A DNA stretch of 16,881 nucleotides from contig JABFSV010000001.1 of assembly GCA_013140405.1 (NCBI GenBank), positions 1 to 16,881 on the forward strand, given 5' to 3'. The notes below the pieces were generated by a model, which did no database searches, had not been told where the DNA came from, and saw nothing but the letters and a program-made list of their open reading frames with translations. Origin of the DNA: Methyloglobulus sp. Its GTDB lineage: Bacteria; Pseudomonadota; Gammaproteobacteria; Methylococcales; Methylomonadaceae. This document shows positions 69-16,881 of the stretch, one piece after another (the first letter of the stretch is position 1; each line of letters begins with the position of its first letter). The position numbers were made by a program, and so were the translations under genes.

Positions 69-76
69 ATAACATT

Positions 77-288: not shown

Positions 289-297
289 CCACGGCTC

Positions 298-573: not shown

Positions 574-658
574 CGCAGATTGCATGGAATAGGGTGGAGT
601 GGAACACTGTCTTCGTGCAGACCCTAACTTTGTACTACTCCAACCAATCGTTCAATCA

Positions 659-880: not shown

Positions 881-1198
881 CCTGCTATCTCCTGTTGTTA
901 AGTATTCATTTTGATAAACCCCATTTGTTGAAGGCAATTCCAACGGTATTTTCTAGGCGTACTTGCTAAATCGCTTACCAGAAAAAATAGGTACAAAATT
1001 GACAACAATTTATGTGGTTCAGGTGTTTAAAAAAACTAACCGACCGTTTTTAAAGGTGGTTTGTTAGAGATTATCCTAATATACCTTTTCTGATCAGTTA
1101 AACGGTATGATTAGATTTATATATCTATGAAAGTGATTTATGACTTGGTTGTTAACTTTCTGTTACACGCTGTGCTAAACGTGTCAGGCTTATGAGTG
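881..1198. other. intergenic region between small ORF and cysB
   Basis: This region of 318 bases is AT-rich and has no convincing gene. It contains the probable cysB-operon terminator at 1029-1061 and must hold the promoter of the small ORF starting at 880. I could not assign -35 and -10 boxes with confidence. Confidence 0.6.
1029..1061 (-). terminator. probable Rho-independent terminator of the cys operon
   Basis: Read on the minus strand, AACCACC (1061-1055) pairs with GGTCGGTT (1045-1038). This gives seven base pairs with one bulged C and a nine-base loop. AG and a run of seven T (1035-1029) follow. It lies about 140 bases after the cysB stop, in the right orientation to end the sulfate operon transcript. 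Confidence 0.55.
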
Positions 1199-2134: not shown

Positions 2135-2142
2135 TTTAGCCG

Positions 2143-3231
2143 TCAGACATAAAAATCAGTTGCTGCTTCTGGAACTTGAGGTTTTGCTAGGTTGAACCAA
2201 TGGGCATGCTTAATAAATAGCGACACCTTATCTCCCTTATCCAAGCCCAATTGTTTGAACTGGTCGCTGGGCATTTCGGCATAAATTGTCTTAGCCGAAC
2301 CGTTTAAGCCCTCATTGCTTAATTCCAGGCGGATCGTCGCACCTAAATGTTGCCAATCTTTAAGGATTATCGGGGATGCTGAACCATCACTCAGTTTTTC
2401 AACGCCAATATGGTGAGGCCGTACATGAGCGGTAATGCCCTCCGCATCATCAAGAACAATTCCGGCACTCTTGAGCCAGGCGCTATCGCCTTTTTGCAAA
2501 TCAAATACATTGGTCTGGCCGATAAAGTGGGAAACAAAGTCATTACTGGGAGAATCATAGATTTCACTAGGTGTGCCTTTTTGCTCAATCTTGCCTTTAT
2601 TAAGCACGACGATCTGACTAGCCACCTCCATGGCTTCTTCCTGGTCATGGGTCACAAAGATCGTGGTGACATCCAACTCATGATGCAGATGCCGCAACCA
2701 AAGGCGCAAGTCTTTGCGGACGCTGGCATCAAGCGCACCGAACGGTTCGTCCAACAATAATACCGACGGCTCTACAGCCAACGCCCGCGCCAAGGCAATA
2801 CGTTGGCGCTGACCGCCTGAGAGTTGGTCAGGAAAGCGGTCATGTAACCAATCCAATTGCACCAAGCTCAACAAATCATGTACCCGTTTTCGGATAACAG
2901 CTTCACTTGGGCGATCTTTGCTTGGCTTGACCCTTAGGCCAAAAGCAATGTTGTCAAACACGGTCATGTGCCGGAACAGCGCATAATGTTGGAATACAAA
3001 CCCGATGTGGCGGTTCTTGACCGATTTGTCGGTGACTTTATCCCCGCGCAAGAACACATCACCTTGGTCGGCTTGTTCAAGCCCGGCAATGATACGCAAC
3101 AACGTGGTTTTGCCACAACCGGAAGGCCCTAATAAAGCGACCAAATCGCCATCTGGAATTTCAAGATTGATGTTGTTCAGCGCGGAAAATGCACCAAACC
3201 GCTTGCTAATGTTACTTAAGGTTATGCTCAT
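2143..3231 (-). CDS. cysA: sulfate/thiosulfate ABC transporter ATP-binding protein CysA
   Basis: Cytoplasmic ATPase powering sulfate/thiosulfate import through CysT and CysW. At 362 aa it has the normal length. The nucleotide-binding domain shows Walker A GPSGCGKT at 35-42, Q-loop Gln81, the signature LSGGQ at 137-141, Walker B LLLDE at 158-162 and the switch histidine His195 in THDQEEAM. The C-terminal third (about 240-350) is a TOBE-like regulatory domain as in other CysA/MalK-type ATPases. All catalytic residues are present. It starts 89 bases after the cysW stop, the widest gap among the three transporter subunits. The gap contains a small palindrome (3306-3319). The ribosome site before ATG 3231 is weak (AGAGA). 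cysB follows eight bases downstream. Confidence 0.97.
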
Positions 3232-3305
3232 ATCTATTTTCTCTATAAATGTTGACTGTAAAGGCTATTCAGCGGCTTTCCTGGGCAGATATTTATATGC
3301 ATTCA

Positions 3306-3319
3306 CCACATCCATGTGG
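3306..3319. repeat. small palindrome just after the cysW stop
   Basis: CCACAT CC ATGTGG is a six-base-pair inverted repeat with a two-base centre, immediately after the cysW stop codon at 3321-3323 (minus-strand reading). It may be a weak intra-operon hairpin that adjusts the amount of cysA message. A two-base loop is too tight for a full RNA stem, so a protein-binding site or chance are also possible. Confidence 0.35.
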
Positions 3320-3320
3320 C

Positions 3321-4184
3321 TTAGGCCTTTAAATCCTGTTTTTGCTTCCATTCCAGGAAGGTCTTAACAACCAGTGTGACCACTGCCAATCCTGCCAATA
3401 AGGATGCGCTGGCGAAAGCGCCCACGAAATCGTATTCGTTGTAGCTCACTTCAATATGGAGTGGCAGCGTGTTGGTAAGCCCCCTGATATGTCCAGATAC
3501 GACGGAAACTGCGCCAAATTCGCCCATTGCTCGGGCATTACACAGCAACACACCGTACAACAACCCCCACTTGATATTGGGTAAGGTGATCTTGAAAAAA
3601 GTTTGCCAGCCACTTGCACCTAACGATAAGGCCGCTTCTTCCTCTTCATGGCCGATTTCCTGCATCAGTGGAATCAACTCACGGGCAACGAAAGGGAAAG
3701 TCACAAACAAAGTCGCCAAGACAATCCCTGGTACAGCGAAAATAATCTTGATGTCATGGTCTGAAAACCAAGATCCAAACCAACCTTGTGCGCCAAAGAT
3801 CAATACATAAATAAGCCCCGCAATCACAGGCGACACTGAAAATGGCAGGTCAATCAGCGTAATCAACAGGCTTTTGCCACGAAACTCAAACCGGGCAATT
3901 GCCCAAGCGGCGGAAACACCAAATACAGTGGTCAACGGTACGGTAATGGCGGCAGTTAACAGCGTCAGCTTGATGGCAGCCACGGTGTCAGGATGCGTCA
4001 GACTAGAAGCGTAGGCCGTCCAACCCTTGGCAAAAGCCTCAATTAGCACTGTTGCTAACGGCAAAATCAAAAAAACGCCAATGATCGCTAAAGTGAGCAC
4101 AACCAGGGCATAGCGCACCCAGTCAGCATCGCCTATGGTCAGCGATTTTGTACGTGATGGCATAACAGGGGAAATTGTATTCAT
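3321..4184 (-). CDS. cysW: sulfate ABC transporter permease CysW
   Basis: Inner-membrane permease subunit, 287 aa, that pairs with CysT to form the sulfate channel. Several hydrophobic spans are visible, the first at about 24-50. The BPD-transporter EAA loop that contacts CysA is present: E183-A-A with G189 and LP at 201-202 (ITLPNIKW). The N-terminal 20 residues or so are polar and cytoplasmic. ATG 4184 is preceded by GAGGA, which overlaps the cysT stop codon. The 11-base gap and shared sequence suggest translational coupling. Order and similarity to the CysT neighbour separate CysW from CysT; both belong to the same permease family. Confidence 0.95.
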
Positions 4185-4195
4185 TTGCGTGATCC

Positions 4196-5023
4196 TCAGA
4201 GCTGTCCACTACGGCGGCGTACCCACCATTGCAGCCCGTTAACTGATAGCAGCAACAGGAATGATAGTAGCAGCATGGTCAAGCCAATGGCGGTGGCACC
4301 GGCATAATCGTATTGCTCCAGTTTGGTGATAATCAACAGCGGCACGATTTCCGAAACATAAGGCATATTGCCAGCAATAAAAATCACTGAACCGTACTCG
4401 CCGACCCCACGAGCAAAAGCCAGAGCAAAGCCTGTGATTGCAGCAGGGAGGATATTGGGCAAGATGACTTTGATAAAGGTTTGTAGCCGAGTTGCACCCA
4501 GGCTGGCAGCGGCTTCTTCCATTGCCTTATCAAATTCCTGTAACACCGGTTCGATGGTACGCACAACAAAAGGCAAGCCGATAAAGATTAAGGCAAAGAC
4601 AATCCCTAACGGCTTGTAGGCGATTTGAATGCCAAATGCTTCCATCACCAATTTGCCGATCCAGCCTTTAGGTTCGTAAATTGCCGCCAACACAATACCT
4701 GCCACAGCGGTCGGCAAGGCGAAGGGGAGGTCGATTAGCGCATCAAAAACCTTTTTGCCAGGAAAGGGATAACGCACCAGCGTCCAGGCAATGATAAAAC
4801 CGAATATTCCGGAAAACGCCGCAGCAATCAATGCTGATCCAAAGCTGACGCGAAATGAAGCCAATACACGGGGGTTGGTCAGAATTGCCCAGTACTCGTC
4901 GAGACTTAGCTGAAAAGTCTTCAGCAGCATCGCGCTGAGTGGTATTAAGACTATCAACGCCAGATAGAATAGCGTAAAGCCGATAGCCGGGCGAAATCCC
5001 GGCATAATGTTACTTTGTGACAT
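4196..5023 (-). CDS. cysT: sulfate ABC transporter permease CysT (CysU)
   Basis: Inner-membrane permease, 275 aa, the usual size. About six hydrophobic spans can be seen (first at about 14-34, last near 240-262). The EAA loop lies at E170-A-A, G176 and LP at 188-189 (VILPNILP), the docking site for the ATPase. The motif [11 protein letters not shown] is typical of sulfate and molybdate permeases. ATG 5023 has an AAAGG ribosome site eight bases upstream. sbp lies upstream with an 80-base gap that shows no strong terminator, so sbp and cysT are probably one transcript. Confidence 0.95.
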
Positions 5024-5103
5024 GTCAGTAACCTTTGGTTTAAATGGAAGGCAATAAAAACAGTGGTGTTATATTTCTCATCTGATCTTAGTCGTTTTTT
5101 TGG

Positions 5104-6117
5104 CTAAGGCGCGTAAATCTGGTCGAACGTGCCGCCATCATCGAAATGCTCTTTTTGCGCTTTTGCCCAGCCGCCGAATTTGTCAGCGACAGTAAACAGT
5201 TCCAGTTTCGGAAAGCGTTTTAAATCGGCTGGATCAGCTTGCTCAGGTTGCGATGGACGGTAATAGTGCTTCGCCGCGATTTTTTGTCCGACTGGCGAAT
5301 ACAGGTATTGCAAATAAGCCTCTGCCAAATCCTGCGTACCGTTCTTTTTGACGACCTTATCAACCACAGCCACTGGCGTTTCTGCCAAGATGCTGGATGG
5401 CGGCACGACAATCTCAAACTGGTCTTTGCCGTTTTCATTATCGTTAATTGCCAGGAACGCTTCATTTTCCCAGGCGATCAACACATCGCCTTGTCCACGC
5501 TGGATGAAAGTCGTTGTTGATCCTCGAGCACCAGAGTCGAGTACAGGCACATTTTTGTACAATTTCTTCACGAAATCCTTGGCGACATCTTTACTGCCTA
5601 GCGCTTTTTCTGCATAAGCCCAGGCAGCCAAATAGTTATAACGCGCACCACCTGAGGTCTTGGGGTTAGGAGTAATGACGGAAACACCTTCTTTCACCAA
5701 ATCACCCCAATCTTTAATGCCTTTAGGGTTGCCTTTGCGAACTAGAAAAACAATCGTAGAGGTATAAGGCAAGCTGTTGTTCGGTAGACGACTTTGCCAA
5801 TCCTTGGGTAGCAAGCGGGCTTTTTCAGCGATTTGGTCGATGTCGTAAGACAGCGCCAAGGTCACGACATCGGCTTCCAAACCATCGATCACCGCCCGTG
5901 TCTGCTTGCCACCGCCGCCGTGGGATTGTTGGACATCTACGTCTTCCCCAGTTTTGTCTTTCCAGTATTTGATAAATTCTTTGTTGAAGTCCTGGTAGAG
6001 TTCGCGGGTAGGGTCATAAGACACGTTCAAGATAGTTCTTTCTGCCAAGGCTGTACCGCTTAGTAGTAAGGCGGCAATAAAGAAAAACAACGGCTTGTTG
6101 GTATTTGAGAGTTTCAT
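5104..6117 (-). CDS. sbp: periplasmic sulfate-binding protein Sbp
   Basis: Periplasmic solute-binding protein that delivers sulfate to CysTWA. At 337 aa it is close to enterobacterial Sbp in length. A signal peptide ends at about ALA (residues 23-25). Family motifs in order are [12 protein letters not shown] at 30-41, [34 protein letters not shown] and [20 protein letters not shown]. The NPK-[ST]-SG-x-AR block is the known prokaryotic sulfate-binding signature. [12 protein letters not shown] and [13 protein letters not shown] line the ligand cleft in relatives. ATG 6117 has GGAG five bases upstream. The alternative CysP (thiosulfate-binding) is less likely, because the overall sequence is much closer to Sbp. 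It heads the cysTWAB run. A promoter is expected in 6118-6290, but I could not place it. Confidence 0.96.
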
Positions 6118-6527
6118 GGTTACTCCATGTTAATAGTTGGTTAAAAGCTCGTAGTGAGCTAAAAAATACTTTATTGATGCATTTTTCAGATTTAGAGTTA
6201 TGGTAAAGCACTCTTTTAATAATATAAAATGATATGTTTAGATTTACTTAGCTTAAAATAAGATATAAAAATCAAACAACCCTTGAGAGCAATAAAATTT
6301 TGGAAACTCTGAACAAGTCCTTCGACGACTAAAGGAAGTGCCAGTGGTGCAAGCTCAGGACGAACGGTAAGTTGTTGATTCCGTTCGTACCCAAAGGGCA
6401 TAAATGGTGGGCTTGTCAAACTATGAATGGAATCAACTTGTTCAGAGTTTCCTTTTGTTTTACTCGATTTGCCCAATCAACTCAGTTACTGACGAAAACA
6501 AGACGGATTCGACAAGACCTGCATACG
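6118..6527. other. intergenic region between porin gene and sbp
   Basis: This stretch of 410 bases has no convincing gene. The half next to sbp (6118-6290) is AT-rich and is the probable sbp promoter/leader. It has a five-base-pair stem AGCTC/GAGCT at 6146-6160 followed by TTTT on the minus strand. The other half is the compound palindromic element 6302-6452. Confidence 0.6.
6302..6452. repeat. compound REP/MITE-like element with perfect 17-bp terminal inverted repeats
   Basis: GGAAACTCTGAACAAGT at 6302-6318 is exactly repeated in inverse at 6436-6452. Inside are a second inverted pair (GTTGATTCC 6374-6382 and GGAATCAAC 6429-6437) and two head-to-head REP-like units: GCAAGCTCAGGACGAACGG at 6349-6367 and CCGTTCGTACCCAAAGGGC at 6381-6399. 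Size and content match the element at 426-573. It separates the porin gene from sbp, and because it lies after the porin stop it may end or stabilise that transcript. Confidence 0.75.
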
Positions 6528-8042
6528 TTATTTTTTGTAGCTTGGCTTACCGTCACCAAATGCATTCAGCGACACTTCAAAGAAGAAGAAATTGCTAGCT
6601 CGGTCGGTAAAAGGGCCATCAACTGGATCATTGAAAGACCGAGTAAAACTGCCCGGCTCAAAGCGAGCATAGCTTAAGCTCCAGTCCACATAAGGGTTGA
6701 GTTTGTGGCGCATTCTGATGTCGAATTCATGACCCAGAAAACTACCACTTTTACCGGATTTATCCTTCAAATTAGCCCGGTTCCAGCCATCGGTTTCGCT
6801 TTGTAGCAAAAAGGCGTTGTAACCGGCATCAACACGTACATCTTTGTAGGGGGTAAACTCAATCCGCGCCTTGGGGGTAATGATGTTATCCCAGGAAAAA
6901 TAATCGTTGCGCGACCACGGTTGGTTGAAACCATAAAATGAATCGAAACGCTGATTAGCACTGTCACTGGAATTTTTATCGCCGGTGCCGTAGCCATAAT
7001 ACAGACTGGCTCTAGGTTTCCAGGAGAGATCAAAGGTGTAGCCGAGTTCCAGGGAGTACGCCAAAGCATCATGTTGTTGCATAACTTGGAGTCCGGTTTT
7101 TTTGTCGATCACGCCACTACGACCAAATTGCTTATTGATGTCGGCATCGAAATCAAAGCCACTTTCTCCGATCAAGCCATAAACGCGAAGACCAGGAGCA
7201 TAAATGTCCAAATCGGGTTTACGGTTAGCCGACACCGGATTGGTGGGGTCGCCATTTTGCTTGCGACCAATGAAATAAGGCTGGATTGTGATGTAATCCG
7301 ACCATTGCTTCAGGCTTAGGACACCACCATAAATCCAGGTATCTTCATCGGGACGGTCAAAATCGTACTTGAGGCGTTCGATTGGCTGAAAAGCAAAAGT
7401 ATCCAAATCCCAATCATTTTGCTTTTTACCAAAACGGACGCGAAAACCTTCGAAATTATTGGTAGTGTTACGGAACTGATTATTACCGATCAAACGCCGA
7501 TCCAGCAATTCCAAGTGCTGACGGCCTGCACGGATGCTTAATGGGCGGTTATGCCCCAGTAAATCCTTGAAGTACAATTCGGCATAGCCTTGGATCAGCT
7601 CAAACTCATTGACATCTGAGACATTCCTTTCATATAGCCCGTTGTAGCTTCTCGAATCTTGGAATTCGACAGCAAAGCGCAATGGGTCCAGGATGTCATG
7701 GACACCAAGATAAGCCCGTGTCCTCAATAGCCATAGATTGTCAGGGTCAGGCCGAAAATCAGTGCTACTATTGTTGCCCGTAGGTGTAGGCCGATAATCA
7801 TTTTCCCGGTATTCGTAACGTGTGCGGTGTTCCAGCCCCACATCCAACCATTCCACATCCCGGAATTGCTCGAACTGGGTTTTGCTCAAATTCCGTACAT
7901 AAGAGGGTGGATCGGTTTCCGGTTCGACACGGTAACCCAAGGTCTTACGGTAATAGTCTTCGGCATTTGCCAAGCCCGGCCATGACAACAGCAGACTTAT
8001 GGTGCTTGCTGTAGACAATAATTTAGTTAAATAATGACTCAT
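6528..8042 (-). CDS. outer-membrane porin, alginate-export family
   Basis: Predicted outer-membrane beta-barrel of 504 aa. The start chosen is ATG 8042, which has AAGGAT six bases upstream. A frame extension to 8087 would need a TTG and is rejected. A signal peptide ends near LANA (residue 27). The mature protein shows alternating hydrophobic/aromatic strands. It contains family-typical stretches such as LEHRTRYEYRENDYRP, LLRTRAYLGV, IRAGRQHLELLDRRLIG and YGYGTGDKNSSD, which I associate with the Alginate_exp (AlgE-like) porin family. Many members of that family have nothing to do with alginate. No alginate genes are nearby; the neighbours are DUF2292 and the sulfate transporter. A role in outer-membrane passage of sulfate or organosulfur compounds is an inference from context. 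Confidence 0.85.
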   Translation of the reverse strand: MSHYLTKLLSTASTISLLLSWPGLANAEDYYRKTLGYRVEPETDPPSYVRNLSKTQFEQFRDVEWLDVGLEHRTRYEYRENDYRPTPTGNNSSTDFRPDPDNLWLLRTRAYLGVHDILDPLRFAVEFQDSRSYNGLYERNVSDVNEFELIQGYAELYFKDLLGHNRPLSIRAGRQHLELLDRRLIGNNQFRNTTNNFEGFRVRFGKKQNDWDLDTFAFQPIERLKYDFDRPDEDTWIYGGVLSLKQWSDYITIQPYFIGRKQNGDPTNPVSANRKPDLDIYAPGLRVYGLIGESGFDFDADINKQFGRSGVIDKKTGLQVMQQHDALAYSLELGYTFDLSWKPRASLYYGYGTGDKNSSDSANQRFDSFYGFNQPWSRNDYFSWDNIITPKARIEFTPYKDVRVDAGYNAFLLQSETDGWNRANLKDKSGKSGSFLGHEFDIRMRHKLNPYVDWSLSYARFEPGSFTRSFNDPVDGPFTDRASNFFFFEVSLNAFGDGKPSYKK

Positions 8043-8180
8043 TTTATATCCTTGTTTAATGCTCTTATAGTGGGCTGTTTTTAACAAAAGCCAATCGATC
8101 TAAGTCAAGGTAACATCCGGTGATCCGGTCAGTTATCAGGTACAGATTTAGTTGTTATTCACCGTTGATACGGTAGAAAG
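8043..8180. promoter_or_regulatory. leader between DUF2292 gene and porin gene, with hairpin
   Basis: On the minus strand a stem of TAAC...GTTA with inner CCGG/CCGG lies at about 8111-8135 (centre CCGGATCACCGG). It has no U-run. Nearer the porin gene, TTGACT followed 17 bases later by GTTAAA is a possible but weak promoter. The region therefore leaves open whether the porin is co-transcribed with the DUF2292 gene. Confidence 0.35.
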
Positions 8181-8375
8181 TTAGAATGAACTCTTTTCGA
8201 GAGTAGATCTCCTATCAAAGCGCAGTTTTTCCCTGCGTTCGATTTGTACGACCTTACTTTCGTGGATAATGATTTCAACCGAGCCGAACCGAATGCCTTG
8301 CAAAGCAATCGCAATCTGGTTTGCGATGTCAGCCACTTGCTGTTCTTTGTCGAAAATTCCCGTTTCAAGACCCAT
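8181..8375 (-). CDS. DUF2292 / YezD-family small protein
   Basis: Small cytoplasmic protein of 64 aa with no signal peptide or membrane span. The core IRFGSVEIIIHESKVVQIERREKLRF (about residues 28-53) matches the short DUF2292 family. From memory, members such as Bacillus YezD have the same GSV-x-I-x-[IV]-H-[DE]-x-x-[VI]-VQIE pattern. Family members often lie beside sulfate or sulfur-assimilation genes, as here, but no biochemical role is known to me. ATG 8375 has AAAGGTG about four bases upstream. The product is acidic at the N-terminus and basic at the C-terminus. It is the first gene of the minus-strand sulfur block and may set its expression, for example as a small sulfur-status factor. 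That role is speculative. An overlapping frame (8159-8368) is a shadow. Confidence 0.8.
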   Translation of the reverse strand: MGLETGIFDKEQQVADIANQIAIALQGIRFGSVEIIIHESKVVQIERREKLRFDRRSTLEKSSF

Positions 8376-8767
8376 AAAACACCTTTGTTTTTAGTTAAGT
8401 CGGAGAGTGCTAATTCACTTTTGAGACAATCTTAGGGTAAGCATTAACATTATTAAAGCGATATTATTCGATATTTAAATCTGAAAATGAGATATGAATA
8501 ATTTTTCTAAGCAGTACAAAGCATTTTCTTGCGTGTCAAATAAGCAACGCCTCGAAACTATGTAAGAAGAAGCTTAAAACTAGAGGGAAGGGGAGTGGCG
8601 GATTTGTTACATCACGGATATGCCAATGTGGCTCATAGGTGAGTAAGATTTTATCCTATAAGGACACGTGTTAAGCGCTGTAAGATTAGTTAGTAGGGTA
8701 CAAACAACGTACCCTACTAGGTCTTAATTTGGCTGTTTTAGATTTTTAAAGTACTAAACATTTATAA
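8376..8767. other. intergenic region, 392 bases
   Basis: No gene is supported. The 8376-8480 side should carry the promoter for the DUF2292 gene. It is AT-rich, with several TAAT/ATTA stretches but no clear -35/-10 pair or CysB-type site that I can defend. The 8691-8719 hairpin is the only strong structure. Confidence 0.6.
8691..8719. repeat. perfect 11-bp stem-loop
   Basis: TAGTAGGGTAC (8691-8701) and GTACCCTACTA (8709-8719) are exact reverse complements separated by the seven-base loop AAACAAC. The structure lies about 50 bases past the stop of the minus-strand secreted protein gene (8768). It could act as a 3' hairpin for that transcript, although no T-run follows on either strand. Confidence 0.6.
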
Positions 8768-9187
8768 TTAAGGTGCTTTTGGACAGACTGCGGTTGCATA
8801 TAAGACATTAACAATCTTGATGAGGGCACGATTTCCAACAGTGTTCGCGGCACCCACAAAGAACAGCAACTTTGCTTTAAGGTCGGCGACAGCCAAAGGA
8901 TTATCCCTGATCTTGATGTCCAATTCGGTTAAACGCGGCATCGCATTCAAGGCGGCAAAGTCCGCAGCAATAAGAGGCTGTAAATTACCATTCCCAATTA
9001 TAAAGACAATCTTGTCGGAATGGTAAACCTGCGCCTGTCCCGTGGTCGTGATTGATGGGCAGGTGGTAATTGCCCCCCTACCAACAGCTTCAACAGTGGG
9101 AACTGCGGACAGTGCCATAGAAGAGGCACTTATTCCGGCAACCAGCGATACGGCAACTGTTAAAGATTTCAGTGTTTTTGTATTCAT
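8768..9187 (-). CDS. secreted protein of unknown function with one cysteine pair
   Basis: The 139-aa product is not recognised. It has a clear Sec signal peptide (MNTKTLKSLTVAVSLVAG..., probable cleavage near ALSA, residues 25-28). The mature part has exactly two cysteines, Cys43 and Cys135 near the two ends, which could form a disulfide closing a small domain. The middle contains FIIGNGNLQPLIAADF and a leucine/alanine-rich helical region (about 75-125). ATG 9187 has AGGAG nine bases upstream, a strong ribosome site. It is a single gene with its own upstream gap of about 250 bases. It resembles the gene at 15670-16119 in size, export signal and cysteine layout, but I see no clear sequence similarity between the mature parts. 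Confidence 0.75.
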   Translation of the reverse strand: MNTKTLKSLTVAVSLVAGISASSMALSAVPTVEAVGRGAITTCPSITTTGQAQVYHSDKIVFIIGNGNLQPLIAADFAALNAMPRLTELDIKIRDNPLAVADLKAKLLFFVGAANTVGNRALIKIVNVLYATAVCPKAP

Positions 9188-9439
9188 GATAGTATGCTCC
9201 TGCCGTTAATTTGACTAACGGTCGTTTTAGATTAAAAAATAAAAGTTTGTTGCTACCGCACTCATCCTGAGTTCGTTAGCAAGGCAGTCAAATTGGCTGA
9301 ATTTGCTGCCCGATTAGGCTGCCTTCCAACCCTGGCAGGCTGGAAGGCAGCTTTCCTTCCTGGATTTCTTGGCACTAGGCCGGGTGGTTATAGCTTCATT
9401 TCTCGGCCAAACTGCCATAACGGGTTCTCAACGCTATCA
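9188..9439. other. intergenic region with an 11-bp GC-rich hairpin
   Basis: GCTGCCTTCCA at 9318-9328 pairs exactly with TGGAAGGCAGC at 9341-9351 around a 12-base loop. It lies about 90 bases after the stop of the dockerin-like gene and may be its 3' hairpin. It lacks a T-run on the minus strand, so Rho-independent termination is uncertain. The 9188-9260 side must hold the promoter of the 8768-9187 gene. Confidence 0.5.
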
Positions 9440-9898
9440 TCAAAAGATGAACAACTGGACATTGACCAGGGCATCATCGCCGATTTCGTGTAAAACACCG
9501 TCCTCATCGACATCCACCGAACCGTCGCGGAAATCGACTTGGTTTTTGCTTGGAACACCATTGACGCCGTTTACGGTGTTCTCGTCATTCAGATCAACGT
9601 TATTGAGGTCGTCTAGGGTAGTGATGCTGCCGCCTTCGTTGACATCGATTTCACCATTGGTGATGTCCACCCGAACCGGGGCGGCTTCGTCGAACCAGAA
9701 TATGACATTATTCAAGTCATCGGCACCATCAATGAGGCCATCCTGGTTAACATCGACGTAGCCTTGGATGAGGTTGACCGAATCGATTGTTACAGCCTCC
9801 GCAGCAGGGGCCGCAATAAAAGTCACTAAACCGAAAAGTAATGGCATCGCGGCGAAGAGAGGTGTTTGTGTTGAATTGATACAAGCAGAGTTTTTCAT
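9440..9898 (-). CDS. secreted protein with three dockerin/EF-hand-like calcium-binding repeats
   Basis: The 152-aa exported protein has a signal peptide ending near AAEA (residue 35). The mature part is almost entirely three repeats of the type V-[ND]-[LIF]-x-x-G-x-[VI]-D-V-[ND]. Loop 1 (DVNQDGLIDGAD, 49-60) has every calcium ligand position of a dockerin type I loop (D1, N3, D5, D9, D12). Loop 2 (85-96) lacks D5 (Gly89). Loop 3 (129-141) is complete at D1, D3 and D5 but one residue longer before its final Asp. Spacing between repeats is about 36 and 44 residues. The protein is strongly acidic. There is no cohesin, glycoside hydrolase or sorting signal (PEP-CTERM, LPXTG) in the protein, nor a partner gene in the window. 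Calcium binding is likely; the partner is unknown. ATG 9898 has GGAG seven bases upstream. Confidence 0.8.
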   Translation of the reverse strand: MKNSACINSTQTPLFAAMPLLFGLVTFIAAPAAEAVTIDSVNLIQGYVDVNQDGLIDGADDLNNVIFWFDEAAPVRVDITNGEIDVNEGGSITTLDDLNNVDLNDENTVNGVNGVPSKNQVDFRDGSVDVDEDGVLHEIGDDALVNVQLFIF

Positions 9899-10092
9899 TT
9901 TCGTTCTCCAAATAGTAGTAAATTAAGGTTTGTTAAAATCTCATGTCAGGCATAACAGAATCATGCCGACATTGATTTTTTTGTGCTTTTTCACCCTTGG
10001 CGCAATGAATTGACGGTCAGCAGGGTAAAACTGGCGAGATTGTCCGTAAACCCGTCAGCGTCGTAAGCCAAACTTTTTTACGATAGTACAGT

Positions 10093-10130
10093 GGCTTGAG
10101 TTATTTCATCCTGGTTGAGCAACTCAAGCC
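10093..10130. repeat. perfect 10-bp inverted repeat with 18-base spacer
   Basis: GGCTTGAGTT (10093-10102) and AACTCAAGCC (10121-10130) are exact reverse complements. Two further outer bases (AG at 10090-10091 and CT at 10132-10133) continue the match after one mismatch. This could be an RNA hairpin or a two-site operator between the dockerin-like gene and the response regulator gene. Confidence 0.5.
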
Positions 10131-10329
10131 CCTGGCTTTATCTAATTACCGTTATCTGGGGTATCCAGAAGAAGGTGTCAAAAGCATCCGGCTTGGTAAT
10201 TACTTTATTCGTTTATTCGTGAGACAACTTGCAGGAAAAATGCAAAAAAATGATTGATTAAGAAATTGCGGAAAGTTTTGTGACTGAATATGGTATTTTT
10301 ACGCTGATCCCCTATAAATAATGAGATTT

Positions 10330-10361
10330 CATATCGACATTAAGCGCAATCGCTTGATATG
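10330..10361. promoter_or_regulatory. candidate operator upstream of the response regulator gene
   Basis: CATATC (10330-10335) and GATATG (10356-10361) form the outer arms and AAGCG/CGCTT (10342-10346, 10351-10355) the inner arms. A six-base bulge lies on the left side. The site is 69 bases before ATG 10430, a plausible place for autoregulation by the encoded OmpR-type protein. Functional meaning is inferred from position only. Confidence 0.3.
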
Positions 10362-10429
10362 CCACTAAACTTAAACCAATAGTAAAGCTGACTATTCCTA
10401 GCTTTAATTTTTTACTGGAATCCTTCCTT

Positions 10430-11152
10430 ATGAGTATAAAAATTGCCTTAGTTGAAGATGATGAAATAATTCGAAACAATTATTCAGAAATTCTTGCCGA
10501 TGAAGGGTTTGAAGTTGTTGTTTTTAGTAACCGACAAGAAGCTATGAATTATTTTCAAACGGCATTGCCGGACATCGCTATTCTCGATGTTGGCCTTCAG
10601 GAAGAACGGGATGGCGGCTTTAAGCTCTGTTCAGATTTACGCCGGTTAGCGCCAAAACTGCCGATCATTTTTTTAACGTCGCGGGATGATGAAATCGACA
10701 GGATTTCAGGGCTGCGCTTAGGGGCTGATGACTATATTACTAAGGATGCGAGCATCAACTTCATCATGGTTAGGATTGAAGCATTATTCCATCGCATTGA
10801 AGTGATTACCCAAAGCCAAACTCCTGAATTAAAAATAGAACAAAATCATTCAGAATTTGGTCTACTTAGATTAGATAAGAAATTATTAAAAGCGGCTTGG
10901 AAAAATACGCCTTTAGACCTCAGCTTAACCCAATTCTGGATTCTCTGTGAGCTGGTGACTAATCCTGGCGAAGTAAAAACCTGCGACAAATTGATGCATG
11001 CCGCCCATATTTGTGTAGAACCCAATACCATAACAGCCCATATTAAAATGATCCGTTCCCGGTTCCGTGATATTGATAGTGATTTTGATTGCATCAAAAC
11101 CGAGCGCTCTGCTGGGTACCGTTGGTTAGATAAGAATTCAGATATCGATTGA
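10430..11152 (+). CDS. OmpR-type response regulator, PdsR-like
   Basis: Cytoplasmic two-component response regulator and DNA-binding protein, 240 aa. The receiver domain (1-120) has acidic pocket Asp10/Asp11, phospho-acceptor Asp53 in ILDVGL, Thr83 and Lys105, so it should be phosphorylatable. The C-terminal 145-235 is a winged-helix domain (NTITAHIKMIRSRFRD as recognition helix region, SAGYRW hairpin). The stretch GLQEERDGGFKLCSDLRRL and SGLRLGADDYITKD recall PdsR, the response regulator of the proteobacterial dedicated sortase system. That match is from memory, and no sortase is in the window. It converges with the histidine kinase gene, with 37 bases between stops. That kinase is therefore its likely partner, although the two are not co-transcribed. 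The ribosome site is weak (GGAA well upstream of ATG). Confidence 0.9.
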   Translation: MSIKIALVEDDEIIRNNYSEILADEGFEVVVFSNRQEAMNYFQTALPDIAILDVGLQEERDGGFKLCSDLRRLAPKLPIIFLTSRDDEIDRISGLRLGADDYITKDASINFIMVRIEALFHRIEVITQSQTPELKIEQNHSEFGLLRLDKKLLKAAWKNTPLDLSLTQFWILCELVTNPGEVKTCDKLMHAAHICVEPNTITAHIKMIRSRFRDIDSDFDCIKTERSAGYRWLDKNSDID

Positions 11153-11189
11153 TATTCAATGCTTCTGCTTCGAATACGGTTGAATTAAA

Positions 11190-12668
11190 TTAAGCAATAG
11201 CTGGGATTCTTACTGTAAATATTGCACCTTCTTTGTTTATTAAATCGCTCGCCTGAACCGAGCCGCCATGCCCTTCGGCAATCAATTTGACTAAATAAAG
11301 ACCTAAACCTAGGTTATCGCTTTTCCAATGTCCGGCATCCCTTAAAGATACAAAAAGATCGAATATCTTATCTTTGTCATCAGGCAGTTTGATGCCTTCA
11401 TTAATCACCGATAACTCCACTATGCCACTGTTATTCAACAAATTGACAGTAATCGGAGTATGCAAATGGCTGTGCTCGATGGCATTGTTGACCAAGTTAT
11501 CCAGCAATTGCCGCAGGCGGTCTTCATTCCCCAGGACATTCAAATGTAGGTCAATATCCCCAATAAATTGGGATTGCGGATACGATAACTTATATTCATC
11601 GATTTGCGATTGAACGATATCAGCTAAATTGACAGGTTTTAACGGCTCCTTATAAATCATCGCTTCCAAGCTGCTTGCATTGCTGACACTAGCCAATAAG
11701 ATATTCATATAATTCAGGCTTTTTTTAGCGCGTTCCAGATAGGTATTGATCGATGGCTGTTGCGACCTTCGTTCGATGAGTTCCAGTGAGCTTTTTACGC
11801 CTATCGAGGCATTTTTCAGTTCATGTTTTAAAAACTTGGCCATATTTTCCAGCCATTGAATGCGGCGATTGTTCGCCTCTGTCAGTTCATCGGTGCGCTC
11901 GTCTACCAGTCCTTCCAGGTGTTTGCTGTATTTGGCAAGTTGCTGGTCACGTATTTCAATTTGCTCCAGCATCGCATTAAAGCTGTCGATTAAGTTGCCG
12001 AGTTCGTCGCTGGAATAATTTGGAATTCTCACCGAATAATCATCATCTTTAGCAAGCGTACTGGTCACATTCTGTAAATCTAAAATGGGGGTTGAAATCA
12101 GCTTGTGCAAACGGGCGGACACGGCAAAACTAAGGGCGAAACAGGCCAATAGCGTGATAACAACCCAGCTAAGGTAGCGTAACATTTTCATAATGAAATG
12201 AGTCATATCGGATCGGATCTGTACCGTTCCGATGGGTTTATTTTCAAAATAAATAGCGTTTGAAACTTCAATCGTACCGACAAAATTTCCGGAAGACACA
12301 AAGTGCAAAATTCTTGTCAACCATGAGGTGTCTTGTTGTTGCAGGGATGAATTTCCTGGATTGGCTTTATATTCGGCAAACAACGCACCTTCCTCCTGAT
12401 AAATTGCTGCATACACGATGTCTTTTTTAATGGCTAAAGCATTCAAATTTTCGATTGCCGTCCTCGGGTCGTTAAATGCCAGTGAGCCAGTGCTTCGCGA
12501 GCCTATCACCTTGGCCAAAGTCGCCAACTCCGCTTCGATATCGTGGCGCATGGTTATAGCCTCATTAATCGAGATAACGATAGCCATGACAAAAATCCCA
12601 ATGCTGGCAGACAGCATCATCATGGCAATCAGTTTGGTTTTAATGGGCAGGTTGCGTAATGCCAACAT
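11190..12668 (-). CDS. CHASE8-HAMP sensor histidine kinase
   Basis: Inner-membrane sensor kinase, 492 aa. TM1 is at about 13-34. The periplasmic domain (about 35-158) contains LAKVIGSRSTGSLAFNDP, typical of CHASE8, the sensor type of YfiN/TpbB. TM2 is at about 166-185, HAMP at about 186-240 and a coiled coil to about 275. The dimerisation helix has His282 in KHELKN (the usual Pro is Ala287). The ATPase domain has N-box Asn391/Asn395, G1 NEG at 423-425 (the common DxGxG is altered to NEGIK), F-box KIFDLF at 434-439 and G2 GLGL at 454-457. Asn in G1 also occurs in working kinases, so activity is likely. The start ATG overlaps the yfiR-like stop (TAATG), which implies translational coupling and a shared complex. 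By analogy with YfiR-YfiN, the YfiR-like protein probably represses this sensor. The likely substrate is the response regulator at 10430-11152. Confidence 0.92.
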   Translation of the reverse strand: MLALRNLPIKTKLIAMMMLSASIGIFVMAIVISINEAITMRHDIEAELATLAKVIGSRSTGSLAFNDPRTAIENLNALAIKKDIVYAAIYQEEGALFAEYKANPGNSSLQQQDTSWLTRILHFVSSGNFVGTIEVSNAIYFENKPIGTVQIRSDMTHFIMKMLRYLSWVVITLLACFALSFAVSARLHKLISTPILDLQNVTSTLAKDDDYSVRIPNYSSDELGNLIDSFNAMLEQIEIRDQQLAKYSKHLEGLVDERTDELTEANNRRIQWLENMAKFLKHELKNASIGVKSSLELIERRSQQPSINTYLERAKKSLNYMNILLASVSNASSLEAMIYKEPLKPVNLADIVQSQIDEYKLSYPQSQFIGDIDLHLNVLGNEDRLRQLLDNLVNNAIEHSHLHTPITVNLLNNSGIVELSVINEGIKLPDDKDKIFDLFVSLRDAGHWKSDNLGLGLYLVKLIAEGHGGSVQASDLINKEGAIFTVRIPAIA

Positions 12669-13261
12669 TATTCATGCCCCTGTTTTGTAGTTTTGACCAG
12701 GGTCGCGAGTTCTATTATCTTGGAGCTTATTGCGAGTCCGACTTGATTGATCGCATCTGGATTGATTTCAAATTGGATGTGATCGCCCGATTTAATCAGG
12801 GTAATCATGCCGCCATGTCTGGAAAAACCAGGAATATCGCTAATGGTCAAGACGGAAAAGTGCTGGAGGGAATTCAACAGGGCTGGCAGCCTTTGTAATT
12901 CAGAGCTGCTTATAAAGGCAACATGGCAATTATTTAACGATTCATCCGACAATACGCCGCTGTTATACATCTCAACGTGAATGCTTTTATCTTTGATAGG
13001 CTTGTCTTGGATAGCGTCCAACGCAGACTGGCCGAACGGATTTCTGCCGATAATACAAAATTCTAAAGACGCATTGCCATCATTGAGTTTTGCTTCCGGC
13101 CATTCGGTAAAGAGGGCAAATTTGTAACTGTATAAGGCTTTGAGAGTGTCTTCACCAAAAACTTTTTCTTGGGCGAATGCCGGTAAGGGAAGGATAACAA
13201 TTAGGATTAGGACTGATAGAAACCGTAAGGTTTTAGTCATGGTTGACACAAAAAATGCCAT
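12668..13261 (-). CDS. YfiR/DUF4154-family periplasmic protein
   Basis: Periplasmic protein, up to 197 aa. A signal peptide ends at about AFA (residues 28-30 of the long form). Family hallmarks are the early YSYKFALFTEWPE and the C-terminal pattern GMITLIKSGDHIQFEIN followed by AISSKIIELA. Two cysteines, Cys69 and Cys112, are placed like the first disulfide pair known for Pseudomonas YfiR. The second YfiR pair is absent. In YfiBNR, YfiR binds the periplasmic part of YfiN and represses it, with release on envelope or redox stress. Here the partner downstream is a CHASE8 histidine kinase, whose ATG overlaps this stop codon by one base. Two starts are possible, 13261 or 13240, neither with a good ribosome site. 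The 16-base gap after the receptor gene suggests coupling. Confidence 0.9.
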   Translation of the reverse strand: MAFFVSTMTKTLRFLSVLILIVILPLPAFAQEKVFGEDTLKALYSYKFALFTEWPEAKLNDGNASLEFCIIGRNPFGQSALDAIQDKPIKDKSIHVEMYNSGVLSDESLNNCHVAFISSSELQRLPALLNSLQHFSVLTISDIPGFSRHGGMITLIKSGDHIQFEINPDAINQVGLAISSKIIELATLVKTTKQGHE

Positions 13262-13277
13262 AGCCAGTAAACACAGC

Positions 13278-15293
13278 TTAATATTTCAGGCTACCCTGAA
13301 GCCAAAACATCCGTTCGGCTTGTAACGGGTTTGGAGTAAATCCATCATAAAATTCAGGATGCTGCGAATCGTTAAGGTTATTGGCGATAAATGCCAACTC
13401 CAGGTTTTTGTTGAGCTTCCAGGCCAATCGCGCGTCCAGGGTGACGTAACTGGGGATGGCTTGTGCCACAAGAACGCCAGAAGCAGAATCAGCATAGCGT
13501 AACCAAAAATCCACTTCAACCGCAGGCGCGATATCGAAAGAGCTTCTAAATGCCCACAAAAAACGAGGATCTTGGCTGGTGGTTTCTGGAGAAACATTGG
13601 GGATTTTTCGTATAGATTTGATCTCCATATTTATAAAACTTGTACTTAATTGAAAGCGTGCCCAGTCAACTGGATGCCATGCCACTACTGCCTCCAAACC
13701 CAAGGTTGTACTTTTTTTTATACTTTGCTCAGGAAACAAATCACTAAATTCGTTGTTAGCAACTAGGTTATTGTTGTATTGGTTATAGTATGCCGCCACA
13801 TCAAATGAAAAACTGTCCGAGTTCCAATAACGATAACCCAATTCATAGCTAACCACCTCGTCGGATTTAAGCTTTTGGTATTGATTAAACTCGAATACCT
13901 GCTTAAGGTTAGGGTCATTTTCAAAAAATACGTTTGCTGATAAATCCGTTACTGCCGGTAATCTTACCGCCCTGGAAACGCCCGCCCATACACGATGTTG
14001 ATTAGCGGCTTTCCAAAGGATACGGAGGGAAGGTTCATATTCAAAGCCGTTATTGTTGTGGTGTTCAAATTTGCTGCCTAAAGTGATTTCCACATCATCG
14101 CTCCAGCGCCATTTATCTTGAAAGAAGACACTGAACCGGTTGTTCTGAAATGTTTTAGGGAAATATTCTTTTGCTATGCCTGAGTTAAACGGTTTTAGCT
14201 GCACTAAACTTAGGCGGTAATTGAATCCCCAAGTCAATTCATGCGCTTCATTCACGGCAAGCACATGCTGAAAATCAAAATCGACTGTTTCACTATTTAA
14301 TGATCGGTTTAGCGACTGATTTTCTTGAAAGGCATCGTAAAAAAATTGTGCGGTCATGCGCGATGCCAAGGACTGGTTATAGTTCCAGCGTGCCATGATA
14401 TTGCCGCCTTTTTTTACAGTCCTATTTAAACTGAAATCATTACTGGGTATATCTTGGTTTTTAGCGTCATTCTGATTATAAACGCCGTAGTAGATATCCC
14501 CTTGTGCCATCAAGGCATGCTTGCCATCGGAATTAGCCCAATCCATACGAAAGCCCCCGCGTCCCGATGTCCATTCTTCATTAGTATCGTTACCTATCCG
14601 ATTGGCAAAGCTTTCATCGCGCAGGAACTTACCGTAAACCCGCGCATAGCCCTGATCGTCAAATTGCCAGCCTTTTCGAAGCCCCGCGCCGTATTTATCG
14701 CCACCAAAGAGCGTCGCACTCCCTTCCATGGTGTCGGCGGAATGCTTGGTGATGATGTTAATCACGCCATTGGCGGCGTTTGCGCCCCACACGCTGGCAC
14801 CGGGGCCGCGTATGACTTCAATCCGCTCAATATCGTCCAGCACCCGGTCTTGTATATCCCAATAGACACCTTTATTAATCGGCGAGTACAAAGACCGGCC
14901 ATCCATCAGCACCAGTAATTTATCAGCGACCAAGCCATTAAAACCTCTGGCGGAAATCGCCCACTTAGTGGAACTGATCCTGGCAACGTGCAAACCCGGC
15001 ACCATACGTAAGGCTTCGGGTATGTTAGTCGCCCCAGAACGGCGAATATCGTCCTGCGTAATCACATAAGCCGCCGCTGCGGTATCCGTAAGTTGTTGTT
15101 CAGTCCGAGTCGCGGATATGACTTTGCTGCCCATCAGTTCTTCGATGCTTAATTTGTCCAATCCTTCGGGTTCATTTGCTAGGACGTTTACCGGATAGGC
15201 ATAGCAAAAAACCGTCCAAAGTAAAATACGACTAATCCATCTTATAATTTTTTTTGTTATCAAGACGACCTCAAAAGGGCTTGATTTCAGCAT
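13278..15293 (-). CDS. TonB-dependent outer-membrane receptor
   Basis: Outer-membrane receptor for energised uptake or sensing of an unknown ligand, 671 aa with no N-terminal STN signalling domain. The signal peptide ends near VLA (residues 37-39). The plug domain is at about 50-185 with ATRTEQQLTDTAAAAYVITQDDIRRSG, MVPGLHVARI, WAISARGFNG and the highly conserved IEVIRGPGASVWGANAANGVINIIT. A 22-strand-type barrel follows and ends in an aromatic residue (SLKY). The plug type resembles receptors that, from memory, are often followed by DUF4154 genes. The substrate cannot be read from sequence. ATG 15293 lacks a ribosome site. A TTG at 15263 has GAGG five bases upstream and would give a shorter, more typical signal peptide, so it may be the real start. 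It is the first gene of the receptor-YfiR-kinase operon. Confidence 0.93.
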   Translation of the reverse strand: MLKSSPFEVVLITKKIIRWISRILLWTVFCYAYPVNVLANEPEGLDKLSIEELMGSKVISATRTEQQLTDTAAAAYVITQDDIRRSGATNIPEALRMVPGLHVARISSTKWAISARGFNGLVADKLLVLMDGRSLYSPINKGVYWDIQDRVLDDIERIEVIRGPGASVWGANAANGVINIITKHSADTMEGSATLFGGDKYGAGLRKGWQFDDQGYARVYGKFLRDESFANRIGNDTNEEWTSGRGGFRMDWANSDGKHALMAQGDIYYGVYNQNDAKNQDIPSNDFSLNRTVKKGGNIMARWNYNQSLASRMTAQFFYDAFQENQSLNRSLNSETVDFDFQHVLAVNEAHELTWGFNYRLSLVQLKPFNSGIAKEYFPKTFQNNRFSVFFQDKWRWSDDVEITLGSKFEHHNNNGFEYEPSLRILWKAANQHRVWAGVSRAVRLPAVTDLSANVFFENDPNLKQVFEFNQYQKLKSDEVVSYELGYRYWNSDSFSFDVAAYYNQYNNNLVANNEFSDLFPEQSIKKSTTLGLEAVVAWHPVDWARFQLSTSFINMEIKSIRKIPNVSPETTSQDPRFLWAFRSSFDIAPAVEVDFWLRYADSASGVLVAQAIPSYVTLDARLAWKLNKNLELAFIANNLNDSQHPEFYDGFTPNPLQAERMFWLQGSLKY

Positions 15294-15669
15294 TTGATAT
15301 TTTATTGATAGTTATAAAAATTTAGCAAATTAATTATCCAAAGATTTAAGCAGAGAACTACCCCCAAGCGCACAACAAATTTCAACAAAAAGGATGGGGT
15401 GTTGATCTTGAATTGCCTTTATTCTTTAATGTCCTATTCCTACTGAATTTGATGGAGGCAAATTTTTGAACCTGCCGCTTTAGCTTAGAAATTTAATAAA
15501 CCTAAGAACGGTAATTGTTTAAAATTGATATTGTGATGCTGGTTCTATAACCAAACCATCTGCCTTGTAGTTCTTGTACTGCTACAAAAACCAAGCGACA
15601 AACAAATACCCGATCTTTTTGAAATAGCGCCTACGCTTCAACGAATTAAGGGCCTTGTTAAACCCCTAT
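15294..15669. other. intergenic region, 376 bases, upstream of the receptor operon
   Basis: No gene is supported. The side next to the receptor is very AT-rich. On the minus strand TTGGAT and TATAAC, 19 bases apart (around 15313-15343), are a weak promoter candidate. A six-base-pair stem TTGTAG/CTACAA lies at 15565-15587 without a T-run on the minus strand. Confidence 0.5.
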
Positions 15670-16119
15670 TTATTGGTTTATTTGAAGAACTAACTTAGGA
15701 GGGCCAATAGCAGTGACTAAACTACTATTTAGGCACTGCGCCTCGATTATATAATCTTCTGGGTTTGCAGCTGATTTCCTGACGACCAGCACATAATTAC
15801 CGGAACCATCGGCAGTGTTAGTTGCCCAAGGGGATGATGTGCTGGTACTCTCGGTATCAAAAACAGTAAGAGTCGGAACGCTGTCTTTACCAAACGTTAC
15901 ATAAACTGTCGCCGCTGAATTAAGTACGGTATTAAGATCAAATACCCTGGCGCGAACTTGAACAGTCCCCGAAGGACACGTAAAAGTATAGGCATCAACT
16001 GCCACTAAAGAAGCACCCAGCGTACCAGACGCTTGAATTGCTTTTGCCGTGAAGGATGCAGCTCCCCCTGCAACCAAGGCAAAAGCCAGTATTATTGTTT
16101 TCACTGTTTTAAGTTTCAT
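15670..16119 (-). CDS. secreted protein of unknown function with one cysteine pair
   Basis: The 149-aa product is not recognised. The signal peptide MKLKTVKTIILAFALVAGGA... has a probable cleavage near AKA (residues 25-27). The mature domain is rich in Thr, Ser and Val with alternating short strands (VQVRARVFDL, ATVYVTFGKD, NYVLVVRKS, DYIIEAQC), suggesting a beta-sandwich. Cys48 and Cys129 are the only cysteines outside the signal and could form a disulfide joining the first and last strands. The phrase SGNYVLVVRKSAANPEDYIIEAQC recalls small extracellular or periplasmic domains, but I cannot name a family. ATG 16119 has GGGAG nine bases upstream. It lies upstream of the receptor operon on the same strand, but a gap of 376 bases argues for separate transcription. 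Confidence 0.75.
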   Translation of the reverse strand: MKLKTVKTIILAFALVAGGAASFTAKAIQASGTLGASLVAVDAYTFTCPSGTVQVRARVFDLNTVLNSAATVYVTFGKDSVPTLTVFDTESTSTSSPWATNTADGSGNYVLVVRKSAANPEDYIIEAQCLNSSLVTAIGPPKLVLQINQ

Positions 16120-16627
16120 AATGTAATTCTCCCATCGGCATAGAAATTAACAGCTATTTACGGTAAAAAAGCGCTAGTGAGCGTATCCTATTCCCCGCAT
16201 GAGGGAATTTTAGCGTGCTATATTTGCTGTCTCGAAATGTTTTTTAAGCCCGCCATTACTTTAGCTTAGTAAAAATCTTCGTGAACAATTACAGCTCAAC
16301 TGAGATTTACTCGCTGACTTTTTTATCCTAAACGAATAATTAAGTCCAATAAATTTGACGCTTTTCAGCCGAATCAAAAACGAGAAATAGCTGAATGGCA
16401 AAAATCCGACTCCAGCTACACTGTATTCGTTTTTCGGTGAAAGAATTTGTAAGAAATAGGTATAAAAAATGAAGAAATATGAATTTTGATCTTGCCCAGA
16501 TTTCACGGACACCCAGCTAAGCGACTTTTAGCTTAAAAACAGGGTTAGATGGCCCTGTTTTTAATCAAGCCGATTATGATCGGTAATACACTAAATCAAA
16601 GGTTCGTCAAGTAGACAATCCCAGACG
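16120..16627. other. gene-poor region, 508 bases
   Basis: An 83-codon minus-strand frame at 16261-16512 has unusual composition and no ribosome site that I can defend, so it is not called. Between 16166 and 16208 are nested stems (ATTCCC 16190-16195 with GGGAAT 16203-16208; CGCT/AGCG followed by six T on the minus strand, 16164-16183) in the leader of the secreted protein gene. These might be a weak attenuator or terminator. The strong terminator at 16535-16562 is also here. Confidence 0.55.
16535..16562 (-). terminator. Rho-independent terminator, symmetric
   Basis: AAAAACAGGG (16535-16544) and CCCTGTTTTT (16553-16562) are exact reverse complements around an eight-base loop, so both strands read a stem followed by T. 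It lies about 65 bases after the stop of the small membrane protein gene at 16628 and probably ends that transcript. Confidence 0.8.
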
Positions 16628-16816
16628 TTATCGTCTTTGCTTCTGTTGGGTATTCGCTGCTTTTTCGACAGGGATGGCTATTTGCTTTATACGGTCAAAA
16701 AAATAACCGATAAAGCCGACCATTACGACTGCGAACAGGATTCGACTTACTACTAGGACATCGGCGAGTGATACGTCGGCGTTGTTATCAAACAAGTTGT
16801 TGAATAAAGTGTTCAT
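16628..16816 (-). CDS. small single-span membrane protein, unknown
   Basis: The 62-aa product is not recognised. ATG 16816 is preceded by GAGGG about eight bases upstream. The longer frame to 16831 would use TTG and is less likely. Residues 1-15 are polar with Asn-rich NNLFDNNAD. Residues 18-40 form one membrane span (LADVLVVSRILFAVVMVGFI and onward). The tail after FFDRIKQ is basic and ends in QKQRR, which by the positive-inside rule predicts a cytoplasmic C-terminus. It is followed by a good terminator, supporting a real, separately transcribed small gene. Confidence 0.6.
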   Translation of the reverse strand: MNTLFNNLFDNNADVSLADVLVVSRILFAVVMVGFIGYFFDRIKQIAIPVEKAANTQQKQRR

Positions 16817-16881
16817 TTTGTCTACCCTCAAGCTGTGTTAACGGTATCGGTCTTTTCACCCCTATGCGTTAAAGAATGTGC

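Follow-up and report, generated by a model that had tools for sequence, protein, structure and literature searches.

A TonB-dependent receptor, a YfiR-like protein, a CHASE8 histidine kinase and a facing response regulator as a probable pathway from the outer membrane to DNA in Methyloglobulus sp.

We analysed a stretch of 16,881 nucleotides from Methyloglobulus sp., a relative of bacteria that oxidise methane (contig JABFSV010000001.1, positions 1 to 16,881; hereafter the window, part of a 3.39-Mb assembly of 545 contigs), in which an operon for a TonB-dependent receptor, a YfiR-like periplasmic protein (DUF4154) and a CHASE8-HAMP histidine kinase faces the gene of an OmpR-type response regulator. 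The four genes probably form one pathway from the receptor to the facing regulator. We consider this the best reading because the linkage of the genes is conserved, the residues of the proposed YfiR–YfiN interface are kept, and the kinase core and the regulator resemble the families TIGR03785 and TIGR03787. Five elements of the pathway come directly from the data: gene order, conservation, co-inheritance, conserved interface residues and a receptor motif that tracks linkage to YfiR. The version in which the receptor binds its ligand and acts on YfiR by touching it is the one we tentatively favour, although it falls short of even chances. An earlier, sequence-only reading had proposed a relay from the outer membrane through YfiR and the kinase to DNA; the single pathway stands, whereas for the contact step import of the ligand explains the data almost as well.

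The three genes of the operon lie on the reverse strand with the receptor first. The receptor (13278..15293, 671 residues) consists of a Plug domain and a TonB_dep_Rec barrel according to Pfam, which recognised none of the N-terminal STN domain typical of FecA-type receptors, in agreement with the sequence-only reading. The YfiR-like gene (12668..13261, 197 residues; PF13689, 126.1 bits against a cut-off of 24.9) follows at a distance of 16 nt and overlaps by 1 nt (TAATG) the kinase gene (11190..12668, 492 residues; CHASE8, HAMP and HATPase_c by Pfam). The regulator gene (10430..11152, forward strand, 240 residues; Response_reg and Trans_reg_C by Pfam) is convergent and ends 37 nt from the kinase stop. 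Domains, spacing and strands thus confirm the tight operon facing a response regulator that had been described.

We propose that the four genes encode one envelope-spanning two-component pathway built on a YfiR–CHASE8 switch. In the periplasm, the YfiR-like protein would sit on the CHASE8 domain of the kinase (12216..12548, reverse strand), its proposed binding domain, and would determine whether the kinase is on or off. YfiB, which binds YfiR directly in the YfiBNR system (PMC4655355), would be replaced by the TonB receptor. Binding of a ligand would change the periplasmic N-terminal segment of the receptor, which carries the motif L..LS.EEL, so that YfiR would be captured or released; the kinase would then phosphorylate the convergent regulator and transcription would change. 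We infer the ligand, the receptor–YfiR contact, the direction of the switch, the phosphotransfer and the target genes.

A scan of named genomes with a kinase alignment gave 54 loci, ten of which cover the whole kinase (L010–L019, with L013 split over two frames). Receptor and YfiR genes lie upstream in the same order in nine of these ten; in L013 and L018 only the end of the receptor is present, at the contig edge, and L019 has neither gene. The facing regulator is found in eight of the nine receptor–YfiR–kinase loci, down to 55% identity, L015 being the one without it. In the genome of the window itself, all five DUF4154 genes have a TonB-dependent receptor in the same gene cluster although there are only 35 plug matches genome-wide, so that this clustering goes beyond chance, and all four CHASE8 matches adjoin a DUF4154 gene.

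The linkage extends to the order and the class. DUF4154 occurs in 49 and CHASE8 in 64 of 121 genomes of the order; among the matches listed, 128 of 150 DUF4154 matches have a listed CHASE8 directly downstream on the same strand (gap between the domains 126–220 nt), while 22 of 150 DUF4154 and 22 of 150 CHASE8 matches are unpaired. At class level DUF4154 was found in 27 of 185 genomes (26 besides that of the window), and the sample comprised all 47 matches outside the window's genome, one of them below the Pfam cut-off, with "beside" meaning on the same strand and within 500 bp. A same-strand receptor adjoins 27 of the 47 loci (immediately upstream in 22, immediately downstream in 7), CHASE8 lies directly downstream in 29, and both are present in 15. 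The order-level regions were chosen by selection and their receptor fractions are not rates: a receptor was present in all 15 regions picked for short CHASE8 frames, in 14 of 20 picked as DUF4154–CHASE8 pairs (five of the other six have one overlapping or at most about 1.4 kb upstream), and beside 22 of the 23 DUF4154 genes in 20 further regions, 14 of which had been picked as unpaired. This neighbourhood search of DUF4154 and CHASE8 shows that the linkage on which the sequence-only reading depended is conserved outside close relatives.

The structural model of the YfiR-like protein matched YfiR best among solved structures (E 4.6e-9), and its profile matches YfiR chains (E 5e-11). The proposed YfiR–YfiN contact residues include Phe162 and Leu183 of YfiR and the motif AAVVF of YfiN (PMC3375315). 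With the P. aeruginosa numbering mapped onto the window proteins within this analysis, F164 and L185 of the YfiR-like protein align with Phe162 and Leu183 and show at least 90% conservation across 33 sequences, the CHASE8 segment GSLAF sits at the position of AAVVF, and CHASE8 F65 and D67 do not vary among eight aligned proteins, E. coli DgcN/YfiN being one of them. These alignments support the view that the two partners keep counterparts of the interface residues, and the YfiR–kinase interface supposed earlier gains counterparts of its contact residues on both sides (F164 and L185; F65). The CHASE8 domain scores 52.3 bits in Pfam, and the DgcN/YfiN model NF007423 matches kinase residues 10–282 (94.4 bits, below its cut-off of 325); by this match, the kinase has a sensor part related to DgcN/YfiN.

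The output part of the kinase carries HATPase_c and an H-box, FLKHELKN, with the predicted phospho-acceptor His282 (11823..11825, reverse strand). All 25 relatives in an alignment keep His282, which lines up with the phospho-acceptor region of HK853-type kinases, whereas HisKA was not recognised by Pfam in this protein, so that the earlier call of a histidine kinase holds by its H-box and HATPase_c and not by HisKA. The G1 box usually begins with D; here it begins with N (N423), as in 75 of 84 homologues (D in 8, motif absent in 1) and in the two sortase-system kinases compared.

Three NCBIfam models are each the best NCBIfam match of their window protein, all below cut-off: HK_near_YfiR_like for the kinase (NF053592, 177.1 bits, cut-off 194), TOL_0243 for the YfiR-like protein (NF053591, 103.7 bits, cut-off 125) and TOL_0244 for the receptor (NF053590, 534 bits, cut-off 645). 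Their names show that YfiR-like proteins beside kinases had already been noticed by NCBI curators.

YfiBNR, to which HmsCDE and AwsXRO are related, shares with the window a DUF4154 protein encoded immediately upstream of a CHASE8-HAMP membrane protein and the counterparts of the interface residues. The window differs in its output, which is a histidine kinase with a regulator and not GGDEF, in keeping one of the two cysteine pairs of YfiR, and in that a TonB receptor leads the operon and no YfiB was found in the window. Malone et al. (2012) described divergent Yfi operons in which sensor-kinase, Hpt or GGDEF-EAL outputs replace GGDEF, almost all of them without yfiB (PMC3375315). The window resembles these operons in its YfiR plus PAS(CHASE8)-HAMP core with a non-GGDEF output and kept interface residues; it differs in tying a receptor to the set, the word "TonB" being absent from the main text of that paper. 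The kinase output in place of a cyclase that had been suggested is borne out by HATPase_c, but taken alone it is not new.

With E. coli YfiB as the single query (phmmer, E 1e-3), 114 loci, the window among them, showed no YfiB next to DUF4154, though a distant OmpA-type protein could escape such a search; the sole match, a weak one, lies in L081 on the strand opposite to DUF4154 and 4.2 kb away from it. An OmpA pattern had given no matches, was possibly too strict and was replaced by this query. The linked TonB receptor is a candidate for the missing outer-membrane partner of Yfi systems without yfiB, and similar sets with other outputs in many relatives suggest that a receptor may replace the partner that many "YfiR" systems lack in the outer membrane. 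Our search, with subscription papers and preprints mostly outside it, found no publication that names a TonB-dependent receptor as the partner of a YfiR system.

In FecA/FecR/FecI, a TonB receptor is the outer-membrane signal sensor and works with an anti-sigma and a sigma factor. The receptor of the window is proposed to act as such a sensor too, but it has no STN domain, and a DUF4154 protein and a kinase replace the anti-sigma and sigma factors beside it. TonB-dependent receptors would then feed two-component and cyclic di-GMP signalling without STN domains or anti-sigma factors.

The set occurs with different outputs. Of the 29 class-level loci with CHASE8, 16 have a hybrid kinase, 6 a kinase and 7 a GGDEF/EAL protein. 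The genome of the window holds, besides the window kinase, a hybrid kinase that carries two REC domains and an Hpt domain and precedes a REC-GGDEF protein, a PAS-GGDEF-EAL protein with the receptor after it, and a HisKA kinase cut at a contig end; the fifth receptor–YfiR pair lies on a 4.7-kb contig on which no CHASE8 was found. On a tree of 86 CHASE8 domains, built quickly and with many weak and some long branches, the output class needs 20 changes against a shuffled mean of 38.0, and the well-supported branches force at least four changes for GGDEF/EAL and at least six each for kinase and hybrid kinase.

In 62 loci with all three parts, the pairwise distances correlate between CHASE8 and YfiR (0.80), CHASE8 and receptor (0.64) and YfiR and receptor (0.56), and none of 2000 permutations was as high in any of the three comparisons. 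The correlations and the tree leave out loci L112, L113 and L115 (repeats of L016, L012 and L010), short domain segments and identical CHASE8 domains. By the correlations, the three parts are co-inherited as a unit, which says nothing of contact between them. A further arrangement is seen in L105 (3871–6594, reverse strand), where a single DUF4154-PAS-HisKA-HATPase-REC protein without CHASE8 stands beside a divergent TonB receptor; by its domain order, the YfiR domain would be wired directly to a hybrid kinase, and this natural fusion counts in favour of the proposed pathway. P0157, with DUF4154, CHASE8 and HAMP in one open reading frame (ORF), was considered as a YfiR–CHASE8 fusion; it matches the DUF4154 model only up to position 107 of 143, its junction and C-terminus look frame-shifted by eye, and it was not used as evidence. 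In L087 (4398–10301, reverse strand), two receptor–YfiR pairs stand in tandem, and no CHASE8, kinase or cyclase was detected beside them.

The receptors linked to YfiR have a common segment between signal peptide and plug, with the consensus L.dLSLEeL..veVtsaSK..Q, which in the window receptor covers residues 45–65 (15099..15161, reverse strand). In an alignment of 38 receptors, S49, E51 and L53 reach a conservation of at least 90%; the others in it have 35–84% identity to the window receptor. In the predicted model of the window receptor (mean predicted local distance difference test score, pLDDT, 78.7, lower in the N-terminal segment), a short helix lies at residues 50–54. A simple pattern for the motif matched only 39 of 87 linked receptors, being too strict across clades, and was replaced by a hidden Markov model (HMM), for which 76 YfiR-linked receptors served as training set and 31 ORFs, the window receptor among them, from three left-out genomes as test set (the 30 retrieved loci out of 78 plug matches). 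The HMM found all eight linked test receptors (17.6–41.1 bits), and among the 23 non-linked ORFs it matched one (L177, 44.5 bits), the other 22 scoring at most 4.9 bits or nothing. None of 17 receptor ORFs linked to PF04392 adapters exceeded 4.5 bits, and several of them share another N-terminus, a comparison limited by the fact that they are a different receptor group too. The segment, common to YfiR-linked receptors and absent from the 17 receptors linked to the PF04392 adapter, is new here; it fits a putative YfiR docking segment and does not prove one.

The nearest family of the window receptor, TOL_0244, is named after a receptor that is up sevenfold on the n-C28 alkane in Thalassolituus and is 40.3% similar to OmpS, an Alcanivorax dieselolei receptor described as essential for alkane detection (PMC6304351). 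TOL_0244-like receptors (E 1e-100 or better) were counted in 25 genomes that all have DUF4154: that of the window, those of two congeners and 22 of the 26 from the class. By coordinates, 17 of the 24 adjoin a DUF4154 gene and seven do not; a hydrophobic ligand for the window receptor is on these grounds a lead, not a result. In the available text of PMC6304351, PMC9788540 and PMC5174103 no mention of YfiR was found, and the window suggests a route by which a TOL_0244/OmpS-type alkane receptor could reach gene expression.

Several observations weigh against a pathway in which the receptor signals through YfiR to the regulator. At class level, a receptor on the same strand is missing next to 20 of the 47 DUF4154 loci (in three of them the contig ends within about 650 bases upstream; in two, L105 and L086, a divergent receptor lies 15 and 170 bp away). 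CHASE8 does not follow directly downstream in 18 of the 47, among them L087 and L082, receptor–YfiR operons in which no kinase was found. The seven TOL_0244-like receptors without DUF4154 count in the same direction, as does L197 (3449–5473, forward strand), a receptor with the YfiR-linked motif and no YfiR, kinase or cyclase detected beside it. The motif is moreover confounded with receptor clade, since the plug model, too, gives high scores to linked receptors. In the four stretches searched beside the regulator and receptor starts there is no direct-repeat family, the repeats found being one pair of 13 nt at 16451–16484, and alignments judged by eye gave no footprint common to the receptor and regulator upstream regions. 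Finally, the operons with a PF04392 protein, described below, favour import over contact.

If import precedes sensing, the receptor is an ordinary transporter, and the YfiR-like protein, similar to one half of a periplasmic binding protein, binds the imported ligand and then acts on the CHASE8 kinase. After YfiR, the next structural match of the YfiR-like model is a single-domain substrate-binding protein of Rhodothermus marinus (E 1.7e-5), followed by 3lkv (E 8.3e-4) and 3lft (E 1.7e-3, structure determined with L-Trp), two binding proteins with two lobes that we take to belong to PF04392. Operons with the same layout, consisting of a receptor, a PF04392 substrate-binding protein and a HAMP hybrid kinase, occur in the same genus and in the order, and contig 70 of the window's genome carries one whose third gene is cut at the contig end after HAMP. 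The plug and barrel of the receptor model are complete and closest in fold to Cir and BtuB. YfiR, whose likeness to 3LFT was noted earlier (PMC4655355), has one lobe, so that the usual ligand cleft is missing; the function of the Rhodothermus protein is called unknown, only Hg and Br soaks being reported (PMC10805632, with no YfiR or TonB in its main text as far as available), and the direct binding of YfiB to YfiR also speaks against import. We regard import followed by sensing as less likely than not, and give it almost the weight of the contact model because of the PF04392 operons and the likeness of YfiR to binding proteins.

Twenty regions with PF04392 were picked from 56 matches listed, together with three others. 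Among the 24 PF04392-type ORFs in them, a TonB-dependent receptor lies within 600 bp of 17, a kinase or cyclase of 18, both of 13 and neither of two (L208, and L203 at a contig end). In L198, L199, L200 and L204–L222 except L208, the PF04392 gene stands beside a TonB receptor, a kinase or cyclase, or both. New here are these parallel operons, which hold a PF04392 substrate-binding protein where YfiR sits.

A broader proposal, offered as a conjecture below even chances, is that TonB receptors are a general outer-membrane signalling input acting via interchangeable binding-protein-like adapters, with YfiR (one lobe) and PF04392 (two lobes) as one class. Each adapter would be read by its own receptor N-terminus (the LS.EEL type with YfiR; EIPSVYSASKYEQ and other types with PF04392) and by a membrane sensor domain of its own, and would combine freely with kinase, hybrid-kinase or cyclase outputs. 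If this were true, the OmpS/TOL_0244 alkane receptors would be the first of the class with a suspected ligand.

It is unlikely that the receptor is a co-regulated nutrient importer, an output and not an input, while the YfiR–CHASE8 kinase senses something else such as periplasmic redox. YfiR has a redox-active pair, Cys71/Cys110, and a pair needed for stability, Cys145/Cys152 (PMC4655355). The YfiR-like protein of the window keeps the equivalent of the first, and patterns for both of its cysteines match 49 of 64 homologues; together with the class-level YfiR loci without a same-strand receptor, this speaks for such an importer. The Cys145/Cys152 pair is absent, however, which counts against it and also leaves the redox switching put forward by the sequence-only reading weaker, with one pair in place. 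Receptor and YfiR also stay together where no kinase was found (L087, L082) and across changes of output, and the correlation of receptor with CHASE8 distances points the same way.

In the preferred pathway from receptor to DNA, the facing regulator is the partner of the kinase. Its closest family is TIGR03787 (275 bits, below the cut-off of 335.7), which no other protein of the genome matches as well (274.5 bits vs 159 for the next), and the kinase core is closest to TIGR03785, the proteobacterial dedicated sortase (PDS) kinase model (175.1 bits, below 612.2). The two families are named for the same system, and the kinase core and the regulator match this pair best, although both remain below the cut-offs; with the regulator kept facing in eight of nine loci, the partnership claimed earlier is supported. 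It is very improbable that the kinase works with a different regulator and that the convergent gene is a neighbour by chance: this gene lies outside the operon, L015 keeps receptor, YfiR and kinase without it, and the genome has 29 matches to the regulator model, but its retention down to 55% identity and the matches of both proteins to families of the same system argue against chance.

As no binding site of the regulator was found, three small secreted-type ORFs on the reverse strand are only possible targets. One lies upstream of the receptor (15670..16119; a similar ORF in three of nine related loci). A second, with acidic D-rich repeats, is divergent from the regulator (9440..9898; in two of nine), and the third lies beyond it (8768..9187; in four of nine). 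The ORF with D-rich repeats is present in two of the 121 genomes of the order, that of the window included.

Elsewhere in the window, positions 1199–8087 on the reverse strand encode a LysR regulator, a solute-binding protein and an Alginate_exp-type porin, all recognised by Pfam, as well as two permeases and an ABC ATPase that were identified only by eye; this region looks like a sulfate/molybdate-type uptake operon with a porin.

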